Source: Fervidobacterium pennivorans DSM 9078
GTDB lineage: Bacteria; Thermotogota; Thermotogae; Thermotogales; Fervidobacteriaceae
Assembly (NCBI RefSeq): GCF_000235405.2
Contig: NC_017095.1
Span: 1,017,501 to 1,081,500, forward strand
Reading direction: 5' to 3'
Length of the DNA: 64,000 nucleotides
How positions within the stretch are numbered: position 1 is the first letter of the stretch; each line of letters begins with the position of its first letter. The position numbers and the translations under genes were made by a program. The notes under the pieces were generated by a model. It made no database searches. It saw only the letters and a list, made by a program, of their open reading frames with translations, and was not told where the DNA came from. This document shows, one piece after another, positions 51,531 through 64,000 of the stretch.

Positions 51531-54500
51531 TCATTCAATCACCATAGTGTAGATTTTAAAAGGTCTGTACTCTACCATAATAGCCCCTGCATTTACATGT
51601 ACCTCTCTAACGTCTTCTTCCAAAATATTCGTAAGATACACCCTACTGAAGCTGAACTCTGGAATTATCTCCAAGTTTCCTGTTGAACCGACCTGCTCGC
51701 ATAACCTTAGTACCTTCTTGCCATTTACTTTTCTGTAGGAAAGTATTTTAAAGTTGTCAGACTTAACATCTATCAAATTTTTTGGTTGACTTAATAAACC
51801 TTCGAAGACTATTATTTTCTTGTTGAAATTGTCGGCTCTCTTCACAATGTCTTTCACATCGCACGGTCCATGTACATAAATAGCATAGCTGAATTCTTGC
51901 AATCCTTCGTCATCGTAAAAATCTGGATATATACCTGCCTTGAGAGCCGTCAAACTTATGGTTGAATCTTCAACAGAATGTCCATATTTACCATCGTTTA
52001 TTATCGTCACCCCAAGGTCGTATTGAGAAATATCCACCCACCTGTGAGCCAAAACTTCAAAACGGGCCTTTTCGAAGTTCGTGTTTCTGTGTGTGGCTCT
52101 CTCTATAAAGCCTCCATCAATATCAAACTTTGCAGTCCTTGAAAGTATGTTAGTTGGGAATTTAATCTTTAGAACTGTTCTTCTCATATGCCAATCAATA
52201 CGAGTTCTAACAACAACTTCTTCACTGTCGGAACCAATAATAAAGTACTGTTCGACCATTGAACCCTCAATTGTGTATTGGGCTTTCAGAACTTTTCTCA
52301 GTTCATTATCTTCAACTACAGAAACGTTATCTGCTTTCAAAATCTTCTCAGAAAGGTGAGAATGGTAATCAATATCCCAATTGTCCCAGTAAGCAGGAAT
52401 ATCCTTGTACAAGGCTAACAGATTTCCTTTGCCTTTAAAAGCATACTTTCCTAAACGCTTGTTGTATATCTGTAGCGAACCATCGTTAAAGATACTCACC
52501 TTCATATGAATGTTTTCAATTTGGTATCCGTCTCCATCTTTTTTGAGTGTAAAATCCTCTCTTACTGCTGAATTTTGAACACTATCGACAGGATTCTTGA
52601 TGCTTAACGAGAGGAGCTTTAGCGGTTCAATAGTGGTGGTATCATCACCCAGCTTATAGAAATACTTCCCATCGTACGTTGGAACTCTTTTCAAGGGCTT
52701 ACCATTGAAGCTAAGCTCAAGCTCCTTTTCCAGTTCGAATTCGACGCTTCTTGAAAAAGAAGAAGTATTAAACAAAGTAATATATCCACTCTCTGAAACT
52801 ATGTTTTCTAAAAATAGCTTTTGCTGTAGTTCTTTGCAATGTTGTATAATATAGCTCAACTCAGCGTTTGTTGTTTCGTATACCTCATGTATTGAGGAAC
52901 CAGGAAGAATGTCATGAAACTCATTGCGAAGGAGAATCTTCCATAACTCGTCAATCTCTGGTTGCAATTCCCCGTCATATAACGCATTTAAGATTTCTGT
53001 AACCCTTAAATAATCTTCCGCAATTTTGTGAAGACGTTTTGTTCTGCTTTGCGAAGTTAACGTTCCACGATGAAGTTCCAGATAAAGTTCCCCGTCCCAC
53101 ACAGGCAATTTATCAAAAGAAAAATCTTCTTTCAATTTTTCGAAGAAATTCTCAGGTGTTGAATATACTGTATCTGGTATTCCTGGTACGTACTTCAAAG
53201 CATAGTAGTTCTCGCACATTTCTTCGGTAGGACCACCGCCGCCGTCACCGTATCCAAATGTTAGGAAAACTTTGTCTGTGAGTTCTTTCTGGCGGAAATT
53301 TTGCCACGTATTAATAATGGATTTTGCACTAATCCGACCGTTATAACCTTCTTCTAAATTCTTGTAACTGTAATACACAACCTCTGTTCCGTCAATTCCT
53401 CGCCATTTGCATATATCATAAGGGAATTCATTCGATTCATTCCATGTTAGTTTTGTTGTCACAAAATATTCTATACCAGATTGTTTTAAAACCTGTGGTA
53501 ACACCCAAGAAAATCCAAAGACATCTGGCAACCAAGCTACTTTAGAAATCTTACCAAATTCTTTCTTGAAAAAGCTCTGACCGTAGTAGAATTGCCTGAT
53601 AAGAGATTCTAAACTCGGAACATTACAATCTGATTCAACCCACATACCGCCAACAGGTTCCCACTTTCCCGTTTTGACCAGCTCTTTGATTTCGTTATAT
53701 AGCTCTGGAGAGATTTCTTTTAGGTCTGCATACATCTGCGCAGAAGATTGGATGTATATAAACTCCGGATATTTCTTTGCTAATTGTACTGCATTGGCAA
53801 AGGTTCTTACGATTTTTCGTTTTGTTTCTTCAACTGGCCAAAGCCATGCATAGTCTATATGCGCATGCCCTGCTAAATAAACTTTTCCTAGTTTTGGGAA
53901 TCGCACAGACACTTTTGATAATTCGGATCTAAATTTCTCATAAGCAATGAGCAAAGTTTCTCTAACTTCTTTTCTCCATAATGCAACCTGAGAAGAAATC
54001 TCTGGAGGTTCCCAAACGCTAAGTACAAGATTCTTAGCTGATTTATTCTCGCTTAATCCCTCCAAATAACTTTTTGTACCGCGTGGGATCTCTATTAACT
54101 GAATATGCTCGTCCAACAACCCCAATATTAGTGTTGATAGTCCTTCATCGTTTGTTTCTTGAACCACATCAATAGCATTTTTAAAGAATCTCACTGCCTT
54201 TAGCATATCGACATCGTAACAAATTAAGTGACCTTCGCTAAACAATGGCTCAGATTTTGTTCCGAAAAGTCCTCGTGGCATGGTTTCAACAGTGAGGTTG
54301 TGTTTTCTCCCATCGCAAAATTGAGTAAGATTTATTTCCCTGTGGTATTCATTTATTTCACCAAGAGTTAGTCCATCTAGTTTGATAAGCGATTCCCCAC
54401 CAAACCAGGCACGTAGATAACACGTATGAAAACTTTCCAGTAGACTCTGTTGAAATACTGATTCAAAAATGGCTGGTTCATTTCCCGCTTCCCACCTGTA

Positions 54501-54626
54501 CGGAAGTCTTATCATTTTTCCTTTATGTATCCAAGTAAGTTTTTCAATTCTTGTAACACAATACGGCATTACCTCATCCAGTATCTTGGAAAATCTCGCA
54601 CAGTCGATTTGTTTGTTCCTGTACAT
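51531..54626 (-). CDS. Alpha-mannosidase, GH38
   Basis: 1031-residue cytoplasmic glycosidase of family GH38, which hydrolyses alpha-mannosides with retention. The N-terminal helical part is followed by the catalytic domain with G-H-A-H-I-D-Y-A-W-L-W (zinc ligands H and D near residue 253) and the nucleophile D in W-L-P-D-V-F-G-F. The C-terminal third is the beta-sandwich of the family. ATG 54626 is behind GGGAGG with 9 bases gap; the upstream GTG overlaps that site. No signal peptide, so it acts on imported glycans. It diverges from the nanE operon over 300 bases. Confidence 0.95.
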   Translation of the reverse strand: MYRNKQIDCARFSKILDEVMPYCVTRIEKLTWIHKGKMIRLPYRWEAGNEPAIFESVFQQSLLESFHTCYLRAWFGGESLIKLDGLTLGEINEYHREINLTQFCDGRKHNLTVETMPRGLFGTKSEPLFSEGHLICYDVDMLKAVRFFKNAIDVVQETNDEGLSTLILGLLDEHIQLIEIPRGTKSYLEGLSENKSAKNLVLSVWEPPEISSQVALWRKEVRETLLIAYEKFRSELSKVSVRFPKLGKVYLAGHAHIDYAWLWPVEETKRKIVRTFANAVQLAKKYPEFIYIQSSAQMYADLKEISPELYNEIKELVKTGKWEPVGGMWVESDCNVPSLESLIRQFYYGQSFFKKEFGKISKVAWLPDVFGFSWVLPQVLKQSGIEYFVTTKLTWNESNEFPYDICKWRGIDGTEVVYYSYKNLEEGYNGRISAKSIINTWQNFRQKELTDKVFLTFGYGDGGGGPTEEMCENYYALKYVPGIPDTVYSTPENFFEKLKEDFSFDKLPVWDGELYLELHRGTLTSQSRTKRLHKIAEDYLRVTEILNALYDGELQPEIDELWKILLRNEFHDILPGSSIHEVYETTNAELSYIIQHCKELQQKLFLENIVSESGYITLFNTSSFSRSVEFELEKELELSFNGKPLKRVPTYDGKYFYKLGDDTTTIEPLKLLSLSIKNPVDSVQNSAVREDFTLKKDGDGYQIENIHMKVSIFNDGSLQIYNKRLGKYAFKGKGNLLALYKDIPAYWDNWDIDYHSHLSEKILKADNVSVVEDNELRKVLKAQYTIEGSMVEQYFIIGSDSEEVVVRTRIDWHMRRTVLKIKFPTNILSRTAKFDIDGGFIERATHRNTNFEKARFEVLAHRWVDISQYDLGVTIINDGKYGHSVEDSTISLTALKAGIYPDFYDDEGLQEFSYAIYVHGPCDVKDIVKRADNFNKKIIVFEGLLSQPKNLIDVKSDNFKILSYRKVNGKKVLRLCEQVGSTGNLEIIPEFSFSRVYLTNILEEDVREVHVNAGAIMVEYRPFKIYTMVIE

Positions 54627-54925
54627 ATTTCTCACCCTCCCTTGCTTTGAACTTCATAATAAATTTCACGCACATCATAAATTATAAATTTAGAAACGTA
54701 AGACCTCCTCTGAAAGAGGCACAAAGAATAAAGAGCAATTCTAAGATAAAGAAAGCAATTCTAAGATAAAGTTTGATACAAGTTTTTTTCTTAAATTGTT
54801 TAATTGATTCTTATTTTTTTACACCAAAAAAAGTTTTTTTGGAAATAATCTCCAATGGTAAAATTTGTATGGAAATAATCTCAAAAAATGTTTTCGAAAT
54901 CGTAAACGAGAGGGTGAACTAATTC
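54627..54925. promoter_or_regulatory. Regulatory region between the alpha-mannosidase and nanE genes
   Basis: About 300 bases of AT-rich DNA. It holds two tandem 20-base repeats (AGCAATTCTAAGATAAAG, at 54734 and 54754), long T tracts, and two exact copies of TGGAAATAATCTC at 54840 and 54870, 30 bases apart, that flank an extended -10 TGGTAAAAT (54856-54864) for nanE. The copies on either side of the -10 look like operators. Confidence 0.65.
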
Positions 54926-55621
54926 ATGAAAATAAAACCCGGTATTATACTGAGTGTTCAACTGGAACCAACAGACCCAATTGTAGACCCTTGTTTTGTG
55001 CTTAGCATGGGAAAAATTGCTGAAAGTGTAGGTGCAACGGCAGTAAGAACAAACGGAGGAAAACACGTCAAAATATTGAAACAAAACTTAAGAATCCCGG
55101 TTATTGGATTGGTTAAAAACAGAGCTTATGAAGCATACATAACCCCTACATTTGACGATGTCAAAGAAGTAGTGAGTTCAGGTTGTGATGTTGTAGCTAT
55201 AGATTGCACTCGTCGCAATCGCCCCATCCCGCTAGAAGAACTATTTGGGATGATCAGAACAAATTTTCCCTATGTCGAGATAATAGCTGATATAGCCGAC
55301 GAAATTGATGCACAGCAAGTTTTACCTTTGAAACCAGATTATATTGCTACAACTCTCAGTGGGTACACTGAGTACACGAAAAATACCTGGTTACCGAACA
55401 TACGACTCGTAAAAGAGTTGGCTTCTTTCTCGCCGGTCCCAGTAATAGCGGAAGGTGGTTATTCAACCGAAAAGGAAATTGTAGAAGCTTTTCTTTCGGG
55501 AGCATATGCCGTTGTCATTGGAACAGCTATAACACGGCCTTGGGTTACACTATCTAAATTTATCGAAGCATTCAGAAACATTAACAACATAGGAGGGAAC
55601 AAAAATGACTCTCGATTATGA
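54926..55621 (+). CDS. nanE: N-acetylmannosamine-6-phosphate 2-epimerase
   Basis: 231-residue TIM-barrel enzyme converting ManNAc-6-phosphate to GlcNAc-6-phosphate, a late step in sialic acid or ManNAc use. Family motifs: S-V-Q near residue 10, V-A-I-D-C-T near 91, P-D-Y-I-A-T-T-L-S-G-Y-T near 134 and V-I-A-E-G-G-Y near 172. GAGGGTGAACT precedes the ATG. First gene of the plus-strand carbohydrate operon; no nanA lyase or nanK kinase is seen, so ManNAc-6-P must come from another route or from genes beyond the window. It overlaps the next gene by 17 bases. Confidence 0.93.
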   Translation: MKIKPGIILSVQLEPTDPIVDPCFVLSMGKIAESVGATAVRTNGGKHVKILKQNLRIPVIGLVKNRAYEAYITPTFDDVKEVVSSGCDVVAIDCTRRNRPIPLEELFGMIRTNFPYVEIIADIADEIDAQQVLPLKPDYIATTLSGYTEYTKNTWLPNIRLVKELASFSPVPVIAEGGYSTEKEIVEAFLSGAYAVVIGTAITRPWVTLSKFIEAFRNINNIGGNKNDSRL

Positions 55622-56897
55622 CGTTGCTGTTTTTGGTGCAGGCTTAGCAGGAATAAGTGCTGCTGTAACTATTCGTAGACTCGGAAAAAGAGTAATCTTA
55701 ATTGAACAAAGTGCCGTTGTTGGTGGTAATGCAACAGCTGGTCTTGTTAATCCATTTATGAAATTTTGGCTTGATAACAAAACACTTTGCGGAGGTTTCT
55801 TCAAAGAACTGATAGAAGATCTAAAAAACCGGGGAGGAATAATTGAAAATTGCTTTGACTCAGAAATTCTCAAATTAGTGTTGATGGAAAAATTGCAGGA
55901 TGTAGACGTACTTTTTAGAGCCATACCTGTATTTGTAAAAACCAGTGAAGATGGCAAAACAAGACAAAAAAGAATAGAGCATGTAGTAGTTAAAACTTCT
56001 TTGGGAAACGAGTATGAAATAAATTCCTCACTTTTTATTGATGCTACAGGGGATGGTAGCCTTTCTTATCTTGCAGGTTGTTCGTATGATTCAGGTGACG
56101 AGACAACAGGCGAGAACCAAGGGACAACACTTATTTTTACATTGTCAAACGTAGATTTTGAAAAAGTACGCGAATCTGTACGCAGAGATCCTGATAACTT
56201 TTTTAAGTGGGTTTCACCTAACTCAAAGGTCTTATCGGTAGGGGGTTACTTTAAGGAGGTGAGAAGAGCAAGGGAAGAAGGTCTAAACTATCCGGTCGAC
56301 TACTTCTTTTTCAACCAGCTTCCAGGAACAGGTAGAGTTACAGTTAACACAACTCATGTCTGGGTTAAAACAACTGATGATTTCGAACTCTCAAAAGCCC
56401 TAAAAGAACTATATAAACAAGTTGAGACAGTGTACATATTTGCCAAGCATTATGTACCTGGTTTTGAGAACTGCTATATTGAAAAAATAGCAACATATCC
56501 CGGGGTCCGTGAAAGTCGTCGTATACGCGGACTTTACAGTTTTTCTGGTGACGATGTTATGAATAAAAGAAAATTCAAAGATGCAGCTGTCAAAGCCGTA
56601 TATGGTATCGATGTTCATAAAAGGACTCAGGAGAGTAACTCGAAAGGTGAGTTTGAGGTTCCAATGGATGAAGACTATTATGAAATACCAATAAGGTCAC
56701 TTATTTCCAAGGACTTTGTAAACTTAGGCATCGTCGGGCGTAATTTTTCTGGAACGTTCTTAGGTCAATCCGCCGCAAGAATAATGGCAACCTGCTCGGA
56801 CATGGGGGAAGCAATTGGGCGCATAGCAGGCGTTACGAAAGGCAGTTTTTACGAAATATTAGGATTTAGCGAACCAAATAACAAGAAGGAGGGGTAA
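55605..56897 (+). CDS. FAD-dependent oxidoreductase of the sugar locus
   Basis: 430-residue flavoprotein of the FAD_oxidored type. Dinucleotide-binding G-A-G-L-A-G-I-S-A-A at about residues 11-20, then E-Q-S-A-V-V-G-G-N-A-T-A-G, the loop characteristic of this family, and a final G-R-N-F-S-G-T-F-L-G-Q-S-A-A-R. Such proteins recur in carbohydrate-use clusters of bacteria, with no established reaction. GGAGGG precedes the ATG, inside nanE. It would oxidise a sugar hydroxyl or an amino-sugar derivative if context is a guide. Followed by the binding protein with a 3-base gap. Confidence 0.82.
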   Translation: MTLDYDVAVFGAGLAGISAAVTIRRLGKRVILIEQSAVVGGNATAGLVNPFMKFWLDNKTLCGGFFKELIEDLKNRGGIIENCFDSEILKLVLMEKLQDVDVLFRAIPVFVKTSEDGKTRQKRIEHVVVKTSLGNEYEINSSLFIDATGDGSLSYLAGCSYDSGDETTGENQGTTLIFTLSNVDFEKVRESVRRDPDNFFKWVSPNSKVLSVGGYFKEVRRAREEGLNYPVDYFFFNQLPGTGRVTVNTTHVWVKTTDDFELSKALKELYKQVETVYIFAKHYVPGFENCYIEKIATYPGVRESRRIRGLYSFSGDDVMNKRKFKDAAVKAVYGIDVHKRTQESNSKGEFEVPMDEDYYEIPIRSLISKDFVNLGIVGRNFSGTFLGQSAARIMATCSDMGEAIGRIAGVTKGSFYEILGFSEPNNKKEG

Positions 56898-56900
56898 CCA

Positions 56901-58148
56901 ATGAGAAAGATTTTTTTGATGATTTTTGTTCTTATCACAGTACTTGGAGTATGTAAGACAATAACACTTGAATTTTGGACACTTTCTTTAAGTCCCACCT
57001 TTGATGCCTACATAAAAGAAATGATCGCAGATTTTGAAAAGAACAATCCAGGTATTAAAATCAACTGGTTGGATATTCCATATGCCTCTGCAGTCCAAAA
57101 GCTAACCGCATCCATTGCAGCAGGACAAGGTCCAGATGTTGTAAACCTCAATACAACGTGGGCCGTGGATTTTGCTGTGCAGGGTGCTCTGATACCTGTG
57201 GACAACCTGGTTCCACCAATCACCATTAAACAGTACTGGGAAAGACTATGGAATGCAACAGTAGTAAACGGAAGAGCTTACGCTTTTCCATGGTATGCAT
57301 CAACTCCTATATTAATGTACAATAAAGACTTGTTCAAAAAAGCTGGTCTTGACCCCGCCAAGCCTCCGAAAACTTGGGATGAAGTCCTTGAATATTCAAG
57401 AATCATAAGGTCCAAATTGGATATATACGGTTTTGAGCCAAACATAATTGCTATCGACGAACTTCTCTTAGAAGGCGTACCAATAGTAACACCTGATGGC
57501 AAAAAAGCCGCCTTCAACACCCCGGAAGCAGTAGCCAAGTTAGAATGGTTCCAGAAGGCTTACAGAGAAAACCTGATGCCGAGATCACTTGGAGGCTATG
57601 GAGAGGGTAGAGAATTCTACCAACAGGGTAAGATAGCGATGTACCCTGCTGGTCTAACTATGTTAAAGCATATAGAAATAAATAGTCCTAATATCTTCAA
57701 AGTTACAGAGGTAGCGCCTTATCCTGTTGGAAAAGCTGGAATCGTAAAAGTCTCCTTGATGAATCTCGCAATTCCTATAACTTGTAAATATCCCAAAGAG
57801 GCAGCTAAGTTTGCAGCACACGTAACCTCTCCAAAATGGCAGATAGAGTTTAGCAAATATGCCACTGTTATTCCATCAACTATCCAAGGTTTGGAAACAA
57901 GTGAATACTTTAGACAACGTGTCAAGGCAGGAGACCTTAATGCCAAAGCCATGTACATGGCAAGTCTTTCTATGAAAAACGCTGTTGACCTTAACGCTCC
58001 TGCTGTCATAGGTGTTCCGGCTAACAAGCTTCCAGATGTCCGAAAAGTCCTACAAGACTATTGGATGAAAGCAATCAAAGGCGAATTGAGCGCAAAAGAA
58101 GCACTCAGCTTGGCCGAAAAAGAGGTGAACGCAATACTGGGCAAGTAA
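56901..58148 (+). CDS. Sugar ABC transporter substrate-binding protein
   Basis: 415-residue extracytoplasmic binding protein of the CUT1 family. Signal peptide M-R-K-I-F-L-M-I-F-V-L-I-T-V-L-G-V-C; mature part begins K-T-I-T-L-E-F-W-T-L-S, with the family segments I-L-M-Y-N-K-D-L-F-K-K-A-G-L-D and W-Q-I-E-F-S-K-Y. A cysteine stands at the end of the signal peptide (G-V-C), so it may be a lipoprotein although the lipobox is weak. GAAGGAGG precedes the ATG. The gene is followed by a 13-bp hairpin and then the two permeases. Confidence 0.93.
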   Translation: MRKIFLMIFVLITVLGVCKTITLEFWTLSLSPTFDAYIKEMIADFEKNNPGIKINWLDIPYASAVQKLTASIAAGQGPDVVNLNTTWAVDFAVQGALIPVDNLVPPITIKQYWERLWNATVVNGRAYAFPWYASTPILMYNKDLFKKAGLDPAKPPKTWDEVLEYSRIIRSKLDIYGFEPNIIAIDELLLEGVPIVTPDGKKAAFNTPEAVAKLEWFQKAYRENLMPRSLGGYGEGREFYQQGKIAMYPAGLTMLKHIEINSPNIFKVTEVAPYPVGKAGIVKVSLMNLAIPITCKYPKEAAKFAAHVTSPKWQIEFSKYATVIPSTIQGLETSEYFRQRVKAGDLNAKAMYMASLSMKNAVDLNAPAVIGVPANKLPDVRKVLQDYWMKAIKGELSAKEALSLAEKEVNAILGK

Positions 58149-58169
58149 TTTGTTCTTTGTTGTGTAATT

Positions 58170-58198
58170 CACATGTGGGGACATTGTCCCCACATGTG
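58170..58198 (+). terminator. Strong intercistronic hairpin between binding protein and permease
   Basis: CACATGTGGGGAC (58170-58182) pairs perfectly with GTCCCCACATGTG (58186-58198) around ATT. There is no T tract, so an mRNA-stabilising or partial-attenuation role is more likely than full termination. Confidence 0.7.
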
Positions 58199-58221
58199 TT
58201 AGATTATGTGAGGTGATAACA

Positions 58222-59097
58222 TTGCGTGCAAGAAAAAGACAGACGATAATAATAGCTGTTCTCTTTTTGGCAGTACCTTTGACGTTACTATCCATCTTTA
58301 CATACTACCCGATAATAAGAGGCATAATTCTCTCCTTTTGTGACTACAACATGTTCACAAAAAAAATAACATGGGTTGGTCTAAGCAATTATAAAGAGAT
58401 ATTTAGGAACAAATACTTTTACGAAGCGCTTGTAAATATCCTTAAATATCTTATCGTAGTTCCGTTTATTCAATTTGTGGCAATTCTTACCGCAATACTT
58501 GTAAATCAAAAACTCCCTGGGATTAAATTCTTTCGTACACTTTTCTATGTCCCCGTGATAACTGGTTCAGTTATAGTAAGTATGACTTGGCGGTGGATAT
58601 ACAATGTTGATGGTTTGCTAAACAGCTTTTTGCTCTCAATAGGTGTGATAAAAGAACCGGTAATGTGGTTAACAGACGAACGCTTCGCACTTTATAGTGT
58701 TATGTTTGTCACGTTCTGGAGAGGTATTGGTTATTACATGGTCATTTACCTTGCAGGTCTCCAAAATATACCAACTGAACTTTACGAAGCGGCAAAGATT
58801 GACGGGGCCAATAGCAGGCATCTATTAACTAAAATTACTTTACCACTTCTTAAGCCAACAATGTTGTTTTGTTTTACTATATCGAGCCTAGCTGCTCTCA
58901 AGGTATTTGAAGAAGTTTTCTTAATGACACAGGGCGGTTCGGGAACAACAACAATGATGTACTTGATCTACGACTATGCTTTTGTCAGATTCAAGTTTGG
59001 GCTTTCCACAGCAACTTCAGTTATCTTTGCAGGTATTCTAATAACTTTCACGGTGATAAACTTCAAATTCTTTGGACCAAGAGGTGAGAAAAAATGA
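58222..59097 (+). CDS. Sugar ABC permease, MalF/UgpA type
   Basis: About 291-residue inner-membrane permease with six helices and the EAA loop Y-E-A-A-K-I-D-G-A-N-S-R near residue 195. A TTG at 58222 lies 8 bases after GAGG and is preferred; a GTG at 58213 overlaps the Shine-Dalgarno. Partner of the next gene, which overlaps it by four bases. The ATPase is not encoded here, as for the mal system. Confidence 0.92.
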   Translation: MRARKRQTIIIAVLFLAVPLTLLSIFTYYPIIRGIILSFCDYNMFTKKITWVGLSNYKEIFRNKYFYEALVNILKYLIVVPFIQFVAILTAILVNQKLPGIKFFRTLFYVPVITGSVIVSMTWRWIYNVDGLLNSFLLSIGVIKEPVMWLTDERFALYSVMFVTFWRGIGYYMVIYLAGLQNIPTELYEAAKIDGANSRHLLTKITLPLLKPTMLFCFTISSLAALKVFEEVFLMTQGGSGTTTMMYLIYDYAFVRFKFGLSTATSVIFAGILITFTVINFKFFGPRGEKK

Positions 59098-59921
59098 AAA
59101 TAAGAAAGCTAATTCAAACGCTTTTTAGCTATTTTATTCTGATATTGTTAGCTGTATTCTTTACTTTCCCTTTTATATGGGTGTTGTCAACATCATTTAA
59201 AGGTCCAGGTGAAGACTTATTTACTTGGCCTCCGAAGTTTATTCCGGAACACCCAACATTTGAGAATTATATAACTGTCTTCAAGAAAGTACCGATGATA
59301 CGATATTTCGCCAACACAATAATAATAACCTCTCTCGGAGTAGCTTTCCAAGTAGTATTAGCTGCATTTGCCGCTTATCCTCTTGCACGACTTGAGTGGA
59401 AAGGAAAAGAACTTGTTTTTAAATTCATCTTGCTACCTTTATTGATACCAATGGAAGGTGCGCTGATCGTCAATTTTATAACCATTCTAAAAATGGGATT
59501 GTACGATACCCATTTGGCGGTTGTTCTTCCAAGTGCCGTATCAATCTTTGGCATATTTCTAATGCGTCAACATTATCTCTCAGTTCCTGCAGAGCTAGAG
59601 GATGCTGCTAGGATAGACGGGTGTAATGAGTTCCAGGTGTTCTGGAAAATAACATTTCCACTTGTTCGACCAGCAACCGCAGCACTTGCAATCTTTGCAT
59701 TTACAGCCTACTGGAACTCTCTGCTGTGGCCACTTATTGTGCTAAGGACACCTGCAAAATACCCTATTCAGGTTGGGTTGTCTCAGTTGAGTAGCACATT
59801 TGAACCGAATTTCAGAACAGCATCGGCTGCTATTGTCATAGCCATGATTCCTATTTTAGTATTCTTTTACTTCACACAAAGGTACTTCATAGAAGGTTAC
59901 AAGGGAGCAATAATTCAATGA
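59094..59921 (+). CDS. Sugar ABC permease, MalG type
   Basis: 275-residue permease with six helices; P-A-E-L-E-D-A-A-R-I-D-G-C-N-E-F is the EAA loop. It has the normal short form (no large insertion), in contrast to the MalG at 20639-23050. ATG overlaps the upstream stop (ATGA). It ends 41 bases before the secreted glycosidase gene, within the same transcript. Confidence 0.93.
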   Translation: MKIRKLIQTLFSYFILILLAVFFTFPFIWVLSTSFKGPGEDLFTWPPKFIPEHPTFENYITVFKKVPMIRYFANTIIITSLGVAFQVVLAAFAAYPLARLEWKGKELVFKFILLPLLIPMEGALIVNFITILKMGLYDTHLAVVLPSAVSIFGIFLMRQHYLSVPAELEDAARIDGCNEFQVFWKITFPLVRPATAALAIFAFTAYWNSLLWPLIVLRTPAKYPIQVGLSQLSSTFEPNFRTASAAIVIAMIPILVFFYFTQRYFIEGYKGAIIQ

Positions 59922-59962
59922 TTCACTCCCTGGATTTTATTTAAAAGGAGGAGTGAGAGGAT

Positions 59963-62866
59963 ATGAGAAAAATTTGGAGTAGAGTTTTTTGCGGTTTCTT
60001 GATTTTGATAACCACGGTTGTTACAGCTCTTCCCTCTATTGGAATATTGTACTCACCGACAACAGAAGGTTACTACACAAAACCAACCTATGACAACATA
60101 ATCCGTGGTGTGCTTGCAGTCTTGGATTATGGCAAATTGGAATACGAAATCATCAATACAAGTGAGGTTACAAGTATCCCCGAATATATAAAGCTTGTTG
60201 TTGATCCTTCGAATGGAGCTTTATCCGATAACGAGGTTGACCTTGTTGAATCTTATCTGATGAAAGGTGGAAAAATACTTGCTTGCTACGAAAGCAGTCT
60301 TAAAGATGCCAAAGCCAAAAACAGAGGAAACTTTGCATATTCGAAATTCTTGGGTATAAAGTTTATTTCCTGGGATAGTGGAAAATACTATAACATGAAG
60401 CCGACTCAATTAGGAGAATCAGTGTTCCAAACTAACAAGAGCGTACCTTTGTCCAGAGGTTTCACATTTGTTGTAGAGGTCACACAAAACGCAACACCTT
60501 TGGCAATTTGGTATACCAAAGACGGAAAAGTTTCAAACGAGAAGTACCCTTATGCTGCTGTTCTTTCACCATTCGGTATTTACTTTGGTGAAAATGTCTT
60601 CCTGCAGGCAGCAACAAATGAAGAGTTAAAATCCCTGGTGCTGAACGCTATAACTTACTTACTTGGAGAGCCCGTGTCTACAGTTAATCCCCTGTTTTAT
60701 ATGAAGGCATCACTGGATGAAAAGATATACAGTCTTGAACAGAAACTCCTTGAATATAGAAAGAAGTTATCTAAGTCAAAGCTTTACGAATTACAGGAAA
60801 TCATCTGGAATCTTAAAGACGCCGCGAAGAAGGTCTCTGATGTGTCCGAACTGAAAAAGCTTCAAAAAACAGCAGATTTGCTCGAGATACAACTCTTACC
60901 ACAGTTCAACGTTCAGTTAAGAGGGATTTGGTTTGATAGTTACGCAATTAGAGATTGCGAAACCCCTGAGAAGTTGCGAGAACAAATAAGAGAGCTTAGC
61001 GAATTAGGATTCAATGCTGTGTTTCCTGAAGTTATTTACAAAGGTATGACCATATCTCCAAAACTTTCTAAATTCCCACAAGACCCTGCGTTCAGAGATT
61101 GGAAAGAAGACCCATTGGAAATTATAGTTGATGAAGCCAAAAAAGTTGGTATGGAAGTCCATGCATGGTGCTGGGTGTACGCTGTTGCTACTGGTGGGGT
61201 GAAAACACCTTTCATGGAAGCTCATCCCGACTGGATTGAAAAAGACAAGTTTGGAGGTATTTTTTCAAAAAACAATACGGCCTGGTTGTCACATGCTAAT
61301 CCAGAAGTGAAAAACTATCTCATTGACGCACTACTAGAAGTGGTACAAAAATACGAAATCGACGGTATAAATCTGGACTATATACGATATGACGGCGATG
61401 AGTTTGGATACGAGGAATTCGCGGTGAAGAGATTCAAAGAAGAAACCGGCATAGATCCGTTCAGTATAGAAAAGTATAGCAAAGAGAGTGTTGTATGGCA
61501 AATGTGGCGAGAAGAAAACGTGAACACATTTGTCCAGGAGTTCTATAGTAAAGCTAAAAAAATGAAAAACGATTTGATAATAAGTGCAGCGGTATATCCT
61601 ACGCTCAGTGGTGCTCGTATGGAAAAAAAGCAAAACTGGGAATACTGGGTAAAAAAAGGATATCTAGACCTCCTTATACCAATGGATTATAGAACCTCGG
61701 TTGAAGACCTTAAGATTCTTTTTGACATGCAGTTAGAATACAAGAGCGATGTATACCTCTGCCCTGGACTTCAACTCATATCCTTGGACGAACCCAAGAA
61801 AGTCATTGACCAGATTTCCCTTGCGAGTGATTATTTCAAGGCTGGATTTGTCTTGTTCTCTGTCTCTCATATAAAAAAGTTCTCAAAAGATTATGAATAC
61901 TTTAAAAACGCTATGTCGAAAAAAGCCATAACACCGTTTAGAAAAATGGAAGAATTGGTAGTTGCTTTCGACGAAGCTCTAAAATCAGAACTTCAAATCT
62001 TTGCTGAGAACGACACTGTAAAAAATGATATTGAAGTTGTCTTTTCAGAATTTGAGAAAATTAAGAAATGCAAAGATTACGCCGAGCTCACGGAGAGTAT
62101 TTCGAAAGCAATTTTTACCATATCCGATAATGTAAAAAACCCTGAATTGGCTTTAGCAGCAGTAGATTTGTTGCATTGGATGCTTGAAATCGTGCGTCCA
62201 GCAGCAAACAGATTAAAGCCAAGAGCAGATTTCTTTCCACAGAAACCAAAAGAAATGGTCGTGGTTGATAACATAGTTCCAATACCAAAATTAGCAGTTC
62301 GGCAAGGCAGTTCAAATCTTAATCGAAATCTTGATGAATGGAAAGATGCAGAAGCTACCGGCGAATTCCTTTACCATGATAGTGGGCAAAAACCTGACGT
62401 AAAGACATTTGCAAAGGTCATGTACGACACTGAGAATTTGTATGTTCTTTTCATATGCGAAGAACCGGATCTCAGCTCTGTAAAAATAGTTTCTGGACCA
62501 CGTGATACTCGTACTTACTTAGGCGACTCTGTTGAGGTCTTTATACTTAAAGATGAAAAGAACAATACTTATTACCACTTTGTCGTAGGCTTCGATGGTA
62601 CTATTTACGATGAAGTGGGTTACGATAGCAAATGGAACGGCGATATTGTAGCAACCACCTGGAAGGAGAACAATGTGTGGTATGCAGAGATAAAGATTAA
62701 TATGAATTACTTAGGGTTGTCTTTAGATGATATCTCTGAACTCAGAGTCAATTTGTGCAGAAATCGTTGGAAAGGCAATGATGCGTTTTACTATGCTTGG
62801 AGTGTCACTTATGGTACGTTCCACACACCTGAAAGGTTCGGAAAATTTATTTTTGGTAGAAAATAA
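59963..62866 (+). CDS. Secreted GHL10-type glycoside hydrolase with CBM9-like C-terminal domain
   Basis: 967-residue secreted protein. Signal peptide M-R-K-I-W to A-L-P (about 1-25); an N-terminal Rossmann/GATase-like domain (about 25-235) with Y-L-M-K-G-G-K-I-L; a coiled linker (about 245-310); then a GHL10/DUF187 TIM-barrel (about 315-640) with L-R-G-I-W-F-D-S-Y, W-C-W-V-Y-A, G-I-N-L-D-Y-I-R-Y-D and L-I-P-M-D-Y. The C-terminal part (about 790-967) reads L-D-E-W-K-D-A ... Y-D-T-E-N-L-Y-V-L-F-I-C, a CBM9-like fold. AGGAGG precedes the ATG. It probably cleaves a polysaccharide outside the cell for the importer encoded upstream. Confidence 0.88.
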   Translation: MRKIWSRVFCGFLILITTVVTALPSIGILYSPTTEGYYTKPTYDNIIRGVLAVLDYGKLEYEIINTSEVTSIPEYIKLVVDPSNGALSDNEVDLVESYLMKGGKILACYESSLKDAKAKNRGNFAYSKFLGIKFISWDSGKYYNMKPTQLGESVFQTNKSVPLSRGFTFVVEVTQNATPLAIWYTKDGKVSNEKYPYAAVLSPFGIYFGENVFLQAATNEELKSLVLNAITYLLGEPVSTVNPLFYMKASLDEKIYSLEQKLLEYRKKLSKSKLYELQEIIWNLKDAAKKVSDVSELKKLQKTADLLEIQLLPQFNVQLRGIWFDSYAIRDCETPEKLREQIRELSELGFNAVFPEVIYKGMTISPKLSKFPQDPAFRDWKEDPLEIIVDEAKKVGMEVHAWCWVYAVATGGVKTPFMEAHPDWIEKDKFGGIFSKNNTAWLSHANPEVKNYLIDALLEVVQKYEIDGINLDYIRYDGDEFGYEEFAVKRFKEETGIDPFSIEKYSKESVVWQMWREENVNTFVQEFYSKAKKMKNDLIISAAVYPTLSGARMEKKQNWEYWVKKGYLDLLIPMDYRTSVEDLKILFDMQLEYKSDVYLCPGLQLISLDEPKKVIDQISLASDYFKAGFVLFSVSHIKKFSKDYEYFKNAMSKKAITPFRKMEELVVAFDEALKSELQIFAENDTVKNDIEVVFSEFEKIKKCKDYAELTESISKAIFTISDNVKNPELALAAVDLLHWMLEIVRPAANRLKPRADFFPQKPKEMVVVDNIVPIPKLAVRQGSSNLNRNLDEWKDAEATGEFLYHDSGQKPDVKTFAKVMYDTENLYVLFICEEPDLSSVKIVSGPRDTRTYLGDSVEVFILKDEKNNTYYHFVVGFDGTIYDEVGYDSKWNGDIVATTWKENNVWYAEIKINMNYLGLSLDDISELRVNLCRNRWKGNDAFYYAWSVTYGTFHTPERFGKFIFGRK

Positions 62867-62931
62867 ATCACACTGAAACTTCGGTCATTTAAACCAAAGT
62901 AAAATCAAACATACTAGAGTGGGAGGTGTTT

Positions 62932-62986
62932 TGTACGCACCTTGCTTTCGTAAAAATGCTCGGTTTTAAACTGCAAGGTGCGTACA
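62932..62986 (+). repeat. 14-bp perfect inverted repeat upstream of the DUF4127 gene
   Basis: TGTACGCACCTTGC (62932-62945) and GCAAGGTGCGTACA (62973-62986) pair around a 27-base loop. A strong GGGAGG (62921-62926) lies just before the left arm. There is no T tract. A 12-codon frame opens with TTG at 62931, 4 bases after GGGAGG, and closes at TAA 62967-62969 inside the loop. Confidence 0.85.
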
Positions 62987-62994
62987 TTTTGCAA

Positions 62995-64000
62995 ATGAGA
63001 GTGCTATTTCTTCCTATAGACGAAAGATTTTGCACAAAGGATTATTTCCTACATCTCTGTTCGTCCGTCGGAATAGATGTTCTCGTTCCTGAATATTTCG
63101 GTCTTAAGAAAATACCAGCTGACGTTGACTACATAATTAACTGGTTATTTGAGAACTCAAGTAACTGCGATATAGCAATACTATCATTAGACATGCTTTT
63201 GCACGGTGGACTTGTCCCTTCGAGGTTGGATTACACACAAGAGGAAACGTTAGTCAAACGGCTGAACGTATTATCTCTGTTAAAAAGGCAAAATACTAAC
63301 CTAAAAATATACGTAACAAAAAGTATTACAAGAATCCCGACTTATAATTCGATGGAGGAAGAACCAGATTACTGGGGCTATTTTGGAAAAGCACTTTACG
63401 AGTATTCGCTTGAACTTGCAAAGGGGTCGAAAGTAAAAAAGACAGATATTCCAAATTGGATTATTGAGGACTTTTTGTGGAGAAGAAGGAGAAATCTGAA
63501 AATAATAAGAGAAACCATCAAACTTGTTCGGTCAGAGGTTATAGATTTTCTTACCATCATGCTCGATGACAACTCTGAAGGAAGCCTTGTTTACAAGGAA
63601 GCTTGCGAACTTCATGAGCTGGTCAAGCAACAAGGATTAAGCGACAAAATACAAATCAGAAATGGAGCAGATGAAGCTTCTTTAAGTTTGCTTTCGAAAT
63701 CTCTGTGTGATTACTTTGGTCTCCAACCAACCTTCAAAATTGTTTACAGGAAACCAGAGTACGCCCATCTCGTCCCCCCATATCACAGTGACGATTTAGA
63801 TACGTCAACTAAGTCACATATTGTCGGTGCTGGAGGAAAGTTAACCGACTCAGAACGTGAATTTGATATATTGCTTTACGTAAACAACTTCGCTCCGGAC
63901 GAACCAAGGGAAGCACCTTTTCAAGAAAACTTACATGAACAAGAAAGTCACGACAAATTGAAGCACTTGATAGAGTTAGCCCTTGAGCAAAGCAAAATAA
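62995..64000 (+). CDS. DUF4127 family protein, N-terminal part (continues past the window)
   Basis: The frame from ATG 62995 stays open to the window end. It begins M-R-V-L-F-L-P-I-D-E-R-F-C-T, which matches the start of DUF4127 proteins (K-I-L-Y-L-P-L-D-E-R-P-C-N type), and continues with S-L-D-M-L-L-H-G-G-L-V-P-S-R and L-D-D-N-S-E-G, also typical. Function unknown; members cluster with carbohydrate genes. No Shine-Dalgarno lies close to this ATG; the nearest, GGGAGG at 62921, is on the far side of the inverted repeat. In-frame GTG 62926 and ATG 62956 are possible earlier starts but would add residues not typical of the family. Confidence 0.75.
   Translation, partial: MRVLFLPIDERFCTKDYFLHLCSSVGIDVLVPEYFGLKKIPADVDYIINWLFENSSNCDIAILSLDMLLHGGLVPSRLDYTQEETLVKRLNVLSLLKRQNTNLKIYVTKSITRIPTYNSMEEEPDYWGYFGKALYEYSLELAKGSKVKKTDIPNWIIEDFLWRRRRNLKIIRETIKLVRSEVIDFLTIMLDDNSEGSLVYKEACELHELVKQQGLSDKIQIRNGADEASLSLLSKSLCDYFGLQPTFKIVYRKPEYAHLVPPYHSDDLDTSTKSHIVGAGGKLTDSEREFDILLYVNNFAPDEPREAPFQENLHEQESHDKLKHLIELALEQSKI

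Follow-up and report, generated by a model that had tools for sequence, protein, structure and literature searches.

The stretch of DNA analysed here is a 64,000-nucleotide window on the genome of Fervidobacterium pennivorans DSM 9078 (C1:1017501-1081500 of a single contig of 2,166,381 bp), the end of which cuts through a gene for a protein of the DUF4127 family. This gene is the last in a run that begins with NanE, an N-acetylmannosamine-6-phosphate (ManNAc-6-P) 2-epimerase, and continues through a flavoprotein of the FAD_oxidored family (FAD, flavin adenine dinucleotide), the components of a CUT1-type ATP-binding cassette (ABC) sugar importer and a GHL10 glycosidase-like protein (Table 1). 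Going by their listed starts, these genes overlap or are no more than 64 bp apart, so a single transcription unit is plausible; no ABC ATPase gene was seen in it. The gene set named by an initial annotation of the window is present in full at the coordinates given there, with strong family matches. That annotation also reported no sugar kinase or deacetylase and regarded the route to ManNAc-6-P as unexplained, but only because the window stops too early: just past position 64000 lie a ROK kinase, an RpiR regulator, a SIS-type deaminase-like protein and NagA. Because the kinase, the deaminase-like protein and NagA are found there, the region is predicted to encode a route from N-acetylmannosamine (ManNAc) via ManNAc-6-P, N-acetylglucosamine-6-phosphate (GlcNAc-6-P) and glucosamine-6-phosphate to fructose-6-phosphate, in which we infer that ManNAc is the substrate of the kinase.

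Gene order in other genomes indicates that this amino-sugar operon is real and conserved, and that both DUF4127 and the flavoprotein belong to it. Among the whole-genome relatives, the order NanE, flavoprotein, binding protein, two permeases, GHL10 protein and DUF4127, often extended by the ROK and RpiR genes, is kept across several families of Thermotogota. The proposal of a conserved glycan-use locus that includes the FAD enzyme and DUF4127 has thus stood up well; the two are tightly linked in relatives and their unlinking was not seen. The flavoprotein type found here occurs in 9 of 61 relatives, all nine of which also carry DUF4127 (itself present in 11 genomes; Fisher p 3e-9), and NanE is present in 23 of the 32 genomes that have DUF4127 but in 13 of the 89 that lack DUF4127 (p 5e-9), although these p-values overstate the evidence because related genomes are not independent. 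Where NanE and DUF4127 are both present they are at most 11 kb apart in 19 of 23 genomes; a binomial estimate is rough, since NanE copy number is assumed and kinship ignored. DUF4127 loci were also dereplicated at 70% identity, giving 79, many of them from Bacillota, and compared over a neighbourhood of eight genes. NanE lies within this distance of DUF4127 in 40 of the 79 and a FAD_oxidored-type protein in 33, and since the remaining 46 have no FAD enzyme that near, DUF4127 can probably act without it. The 80 GTDB loci are those that best matched a single peptide pattern, and so do not sample the family at random. On a DUF4127 tree built by a quick method, the NanE label changes about 17 times, and most of the Thermotogota with both NanE and the FAD enzyme fall into one strongly supported group.

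Several individual loci deserve mention. A divergent DUF4127 subtype is accompanied by the FAD enzyme and a CUT1 transporter in loci L025, L037 (first copy), L042, L046, L047 and L048, in most of which NanE does not adjoin; it usually comes with a protein of about 225 aa, and the one scanned (L037:1147-1824) had no Pfam or NCBIfam match. Three consecutive DUF4127 genes stand between GHL10-like genes in an Acholeplasmataceae metagenome-assembled genome (L088:4740-9324), and an in-frame TGA interrupts DUF4127 in genome G062 (L044:9695-10882). An open reading frame (ORF) joining DUF4985 to DUF4127 in L060 was not counted as a fusion, since the genome is GC-rich and the upstream portion of the ORF may not be a true reading frame. 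The 902 aa WD40-repeat protein encoded after the operon in L003 (11304-14012) is apparently unrelated to it.

Table 1. Features at the locus; positions are those of the window unless marked as genome positions
Feature	Position	Strand	Remarks
GH38 alpha-mannosidase, Ams1-like	51531-54635	-	Pfam GH38 N, middle and C domains; divergent from operon
Operator-like palindrome TTGGAAATAATCTCCAA	54839-54855		Similar sites 5' of NanE in L024, L027 and L028
Second operator-like site ATGGAAATAATCTCAAA	54869-54885		30 bp downstream of TTGGAAATAATCTCCAA
NanE, ManNAc-6-P 2-epimerase	54926-55621	+	PF04131, 135.6 bits; PRK01130, 192.1 bits; solved NanE relatives
FAD_oxidored-family flavoprotein, predicted cytoplasmic	55605-56897	+	PF12831, 313 bits
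CUT1-type sugar-binding protein	56901-58148	+	PF01547
ABC permease 1	58213-59097	+	PF00528
ABC permease 2	59094-59921	+	PF00528
GHL10 glycosidase-like protein with C-terminal CBM9-like domain	59963-62866	+	PF02638, 137 bits; PF06452, 35 bits
DUF4127, 5' part	62926-64000, open at window end	+	PF13552; gene ends at genome position 1081976
ROK kinase	genome 1082018-1082905		Beyond window, directly after DUF4127
RpiR regulator	genome 1082909-1083745		Beyond window
SIS-type deaminase-like protein	genome 1084125-1085060		Beyond window; 379 bp gap after RpiR gene
NagA	genome 1085101-1086156		Beyond window; followed by unrelated MoxR-type gene

Family membership is clear for much of the lower pathway. 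NanE exceeds both the NCBIfam cut-off for PRK01130 (189 bits) and the Pfam cut-off, and aligns along its whole length with solved NanE structures. NagA, the sole copy in the genome, scores 258 bits against TIGR00221 (cut-off 225.65). The SIS protein has as its best solved match 1j5x, which is named as a glucosamine-6-phosphate deaminase, and scores below the curated GlmD and NagB-II cut-offs. The ROK protein has the ExGH and CxCGxxGC motifs, and the solved proteins closest to it are glucokinases and ManNAc kinases. In a related locus (L029, the one scanned) NanE and ROK are fused in one protein, and in some relatives the NanE-bearing protein is about 500 aa long. Such a fusion would couple the product of the kinase to the epimerase, and it supports a role for the ROK protein as a ManNAc kinase.

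The lower pathway is textbook; DUF4127 and its FAD partner are the two unexplained entry enzymes. The whole DUF4127 protein, whose likely start by alignment is the ATG at 62995, matches PF13552 over positions 1-488 of 489 (433 bits, over the curated cut-off). An alignment of 27 relatives has 27 invariant residues, including R34, R100, R136, R187, R189, R444, R504, D32, D215, D249, E225 and E507; so arginine-rich a set would suit an anionic substrate. The predicted model (predicted local distance difference test (pLDDT) 89.3, predicted template modelling score (pTM) 0.91) is a confident one of alpha/beta type, with alternating strands and helices and several of the invariant residues just after strands. 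No PDB chain was matched by sequence and none gave a good fold match, the best template modelling score (TM) being about 0.2. GH84 came top of this fold search at only that value, and DUF4127 has a [DEQ]D pair following a strand ('LDDNSEGS') that recalls the DD motif of GH84, which is present in the GH84 proteins of L109 and L088; with so low a TM and a negative profile comparison, we take a GH84-like catalytic pair as a hint only. The BFVD model of an unnamed viral protein (A0A346TNQ6) matches the DUF4127 model over most of its length (TM 0.76, 19% identity). By a simple hydrophobicity rule, a clear leader is found in only three DUF4127 proteins (in L036, one of those in L056, and L118), and the family would appear to be mostly cytoplasmic. 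In L118 (9914-17425, Desulforadius tongensis), hydrophobic leaders are found on DUF4127 and on both of two FAD_oxidored proteins, as would fit a pair working outside the cytoplasm. The flavoprotein has as invariant features the GxGxxG motif, E34, Y333, D336 and H338, and its AlphaFold model (pLDDT 90.5) resembles general flavoenzymes with a TM of 0.3-0.5, which indicates no substrate; it may, as the initial annotation suggested, tailor a sugar ahead of epimerisation. The literature searched held no mention of DUF4127 and no paper on an N-acetylmannosaminidase, and for PF12831 it held one paper, on the flavoproteome of Brucella ovis.

Upstream of NanE, the two palindromes TTGGAAATAATCTCCAA and ATGGAAATAATCTCAAA lie 30 bp apart. 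On the one strand of the 64 kb window that was scanned, these two sites alone match TGGAAATNATTTCCA with up to two mismatches, and genome-wide they alone match TGGAAATNATYTCCA with up to one; since this locus and its relatives supplied the pattern, the first match is in part built in. Better evidence for an operator comes from the second copy and the sites 5' of NanE in the three related loci listed in Table 1. These palindromes would most naturally be bound by the RpiR protein. A promoter scan gave no plus-strand sigma-70 site upstream of the NanE operon.

We put at about even the chance that the cluster is a conserved operon, probably controlled by the RpiR protein that it encodes, for the catabolism of an N-acetylhexosamine (HexNAc) glycan which yields ManNAc. 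The secreted GHL10 enzyme would break a polysaccharide into fragments, the CUT1 transporter would take up the resulting oligosaccharides, and cytoplasmic DUF4127 would degrade them, most likely by cutting the ManNAc-releasing glycosidic bond. Cleavage of imported HexNAc oligosaccharides is the most likely reaction of DUF4127, and the FAD enzyme would then play an accessory part where a residue is modified. The ROK kinase would convert ManNAc to ManNAc-6-P and NanE would convert this to GlcNAc-6-P, which NagA would deacetylate and the SIS deaminase would carry on to fructose-6-phosphate. At somewhat less than even odds, DUF4127 may represent a novel enzyme family, its fold still absent from the PDB, that performs the cleavage otherwise missing at the entry of ManNAc to the NanK-NanE route in Thermotogota and Bacillota, possibly by FAD-assisted redox chemistry. 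Loci from Bacillota and other groups contain extra GH84, GH20C, DUF4434, esterase, GFO/IDH/MocA and AP_endonuc_2 proteins, so that known HexNAc glycosidases (GH84 and GH20C) are neighbours of DUF4127 elsewhere. Our best guess at the natural substrate is a bacterial cell-wall polymer of ManNAc and GlcNAc, which is consistent with NanE, with the GH84 and GH20 neighbours and with the arginine-rich site. The secondary cell-wall polymer of Paenibacillus alvei has the repeat 4,6-pyruvyl-ManNAc-GlcNAc (PMC11464976), and ManNAc-GlcNAc polymers occur in the kind of bacteria which often carry DUF4127.

Several observations weigh against this proposal of a ManNAc-yielding operon. DUF4127 resembles no glycosidase by profile or by fold, and hhalign comparisons with GH84, GH20C and others were negative, albeit with shallow profiles. 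The ROK protein scores under the curated NanK cut-offs. The SIS and NagA genes adjoin the unit in this genome only, and no matching operator was found 5' of them. Finally, there is a DUF4127 subtype with the FAD enzyme and a transporter in which most loci are without NanE, and it follows that not every member of the family feeds ManNAc.

A different use of the same genes would be redox-assisted cleavage, in which an imported HexNAc glycoside would be oxidised at C3 by the FAD enzyme, and DUF4127 would act on the 3-keto-glycoside as a lyase or hydrolase. If the C2 stereocentre were lost in elimination and hydration, ManNAc could result, and this would explain the need for NanE. Such a scheme fits with the presence of DUF4127 in all nine genomes that have this FAD type, with the persistence of the FAD-DUF4127 pair in the subtype without NanE, with the shared leaders in L118, and with the appearance in some Bacillota loci of GFO/IDH/MocA and AP_endonuc_2, families of known 3-keto-sugar routes. 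We nonetheless judge it unlikely: most dereplicated DUF4127 loci (46 of 79) are without a nearby FAD enzyme, the FAD model is similar to general flavoenzymes only, and there is no demonstrated sequence link to DUF1080 or to other known 3-keto-glycoside enzymes. The known pathways, which combine a dehydrogenase with DUF1080 (PMC9007349), likewise pair an oxidoreductase with a formerly unknown family; their protein families differ from those here, and the likeness is a possible analogy only.

The GHL10 protein raises the question of whether the operon scavenges peptidoglycan. It has an N-terminal hydrophobic leader, is probably secreted, and has as its sole solved relative Cwp19 of Clostridioides difficile, a GHL10 protein that is a lytic transglycosylase (PMC6016235). 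Were it to act in the same way, the operon could scavenge peptidoglycan or N-acetylmuramic acid (MurNAc), consuming the sugars of anhydro-muropeptides, and the genome indeed has no strong MurQ match and no AnmK match. However, the proposed active-site position Asp196 of Cwp19 (PMC5765458) is a tyrosine here by pairwise alignment. It falls within an LDYIRY motif that is common to most Thermotogota relatives (LDYVRY in L043) and stands in place of the FDD-type motif of Cwp19, and the protein carries a CBM9-like domain rather than CWB2 domains. With no aspartate at this position, the activity of Cwp19 should not be taken for granted in the GHL10 protein. Moreover, MurNAc does not require NanE, and several carriers of the cluster already have MurQ and AnmK, which argues against the operon as a replacement MurNAc route; we regard the whole idea as highly improbable. 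In genome G007 the GHL10 gene is split into two ORFs (L027:7036-9939), and it is intact in the near-identical locus of G008.

We are just as doubtful of a mannose-rich glycan locus centred on the GH38 alpha-mannosidase, whose best solved relatives are of the Ams1 type. The gene does adjoin the cluster, divergently, in all three cluster-bearing members of the genus. Its tie to the unit is loose, however. A full-length GH38 is present in all three genus members with DUF4127 but also in five of the six without it; its distance from NanE is about 6 kb in G024, and in G014, G018 and G023 it is not even on the contig that bears the cluster. Because most members of the genus have GH38 without the cluster, it is probably a mere neighbour and not the core of the unit. 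Least credible of all is a sialic acid pathway making ManNAc from Neu5Ac: NanE and a NanK-like ROK kinase are present, as such a pathway would have them, but the lyase is not, NanA being absent from the genome, in which the only DHDPS-family gene is DapA-like (353 bits against a cut-off of 206) and far under the NanA cut-off, in agreement with the initial annotation, which saw no lyase in the window, and no sialidase family was matched by the proteins of the unit, the only part of the genome searched for one.

The cluster has relatives among described systems. It shares with the lower nan pathway (NanK-NanE-NagA-NagB) a ROK kinase, NanE, NagA and a putative deaminase in one region with an RpiR regulator, and differs in having no NanA, a deaminase of SIS type and, at its entrance, an ABC importer with GHL10, the FAD enzyme and DUF4127. 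The chitobiose regulon of Thermotoga maritima, from the same bacterial order, likewise combines an ABC sugar importer with nagA and nagB genes; it has the chitobiose hydrolase cbsA and the ROK regulator ChiR (PMC3750489), in contrast to the NanE, DUF4127, FAD enzyme, GHL10 protein and RpiR regulator seen here. The interest of DUF4127 and the FAD enzyme survives the loss of the missing-kinase puzzle and is strengthened by the linkage data. Gene context reduces the guess at what DUF4127 does to a few testable sugar substrates. A family found across Thermotogota and Bacillota can thus be assayed directly, and this could uncover a supply of ManNAc that does not depend on sialic acid.

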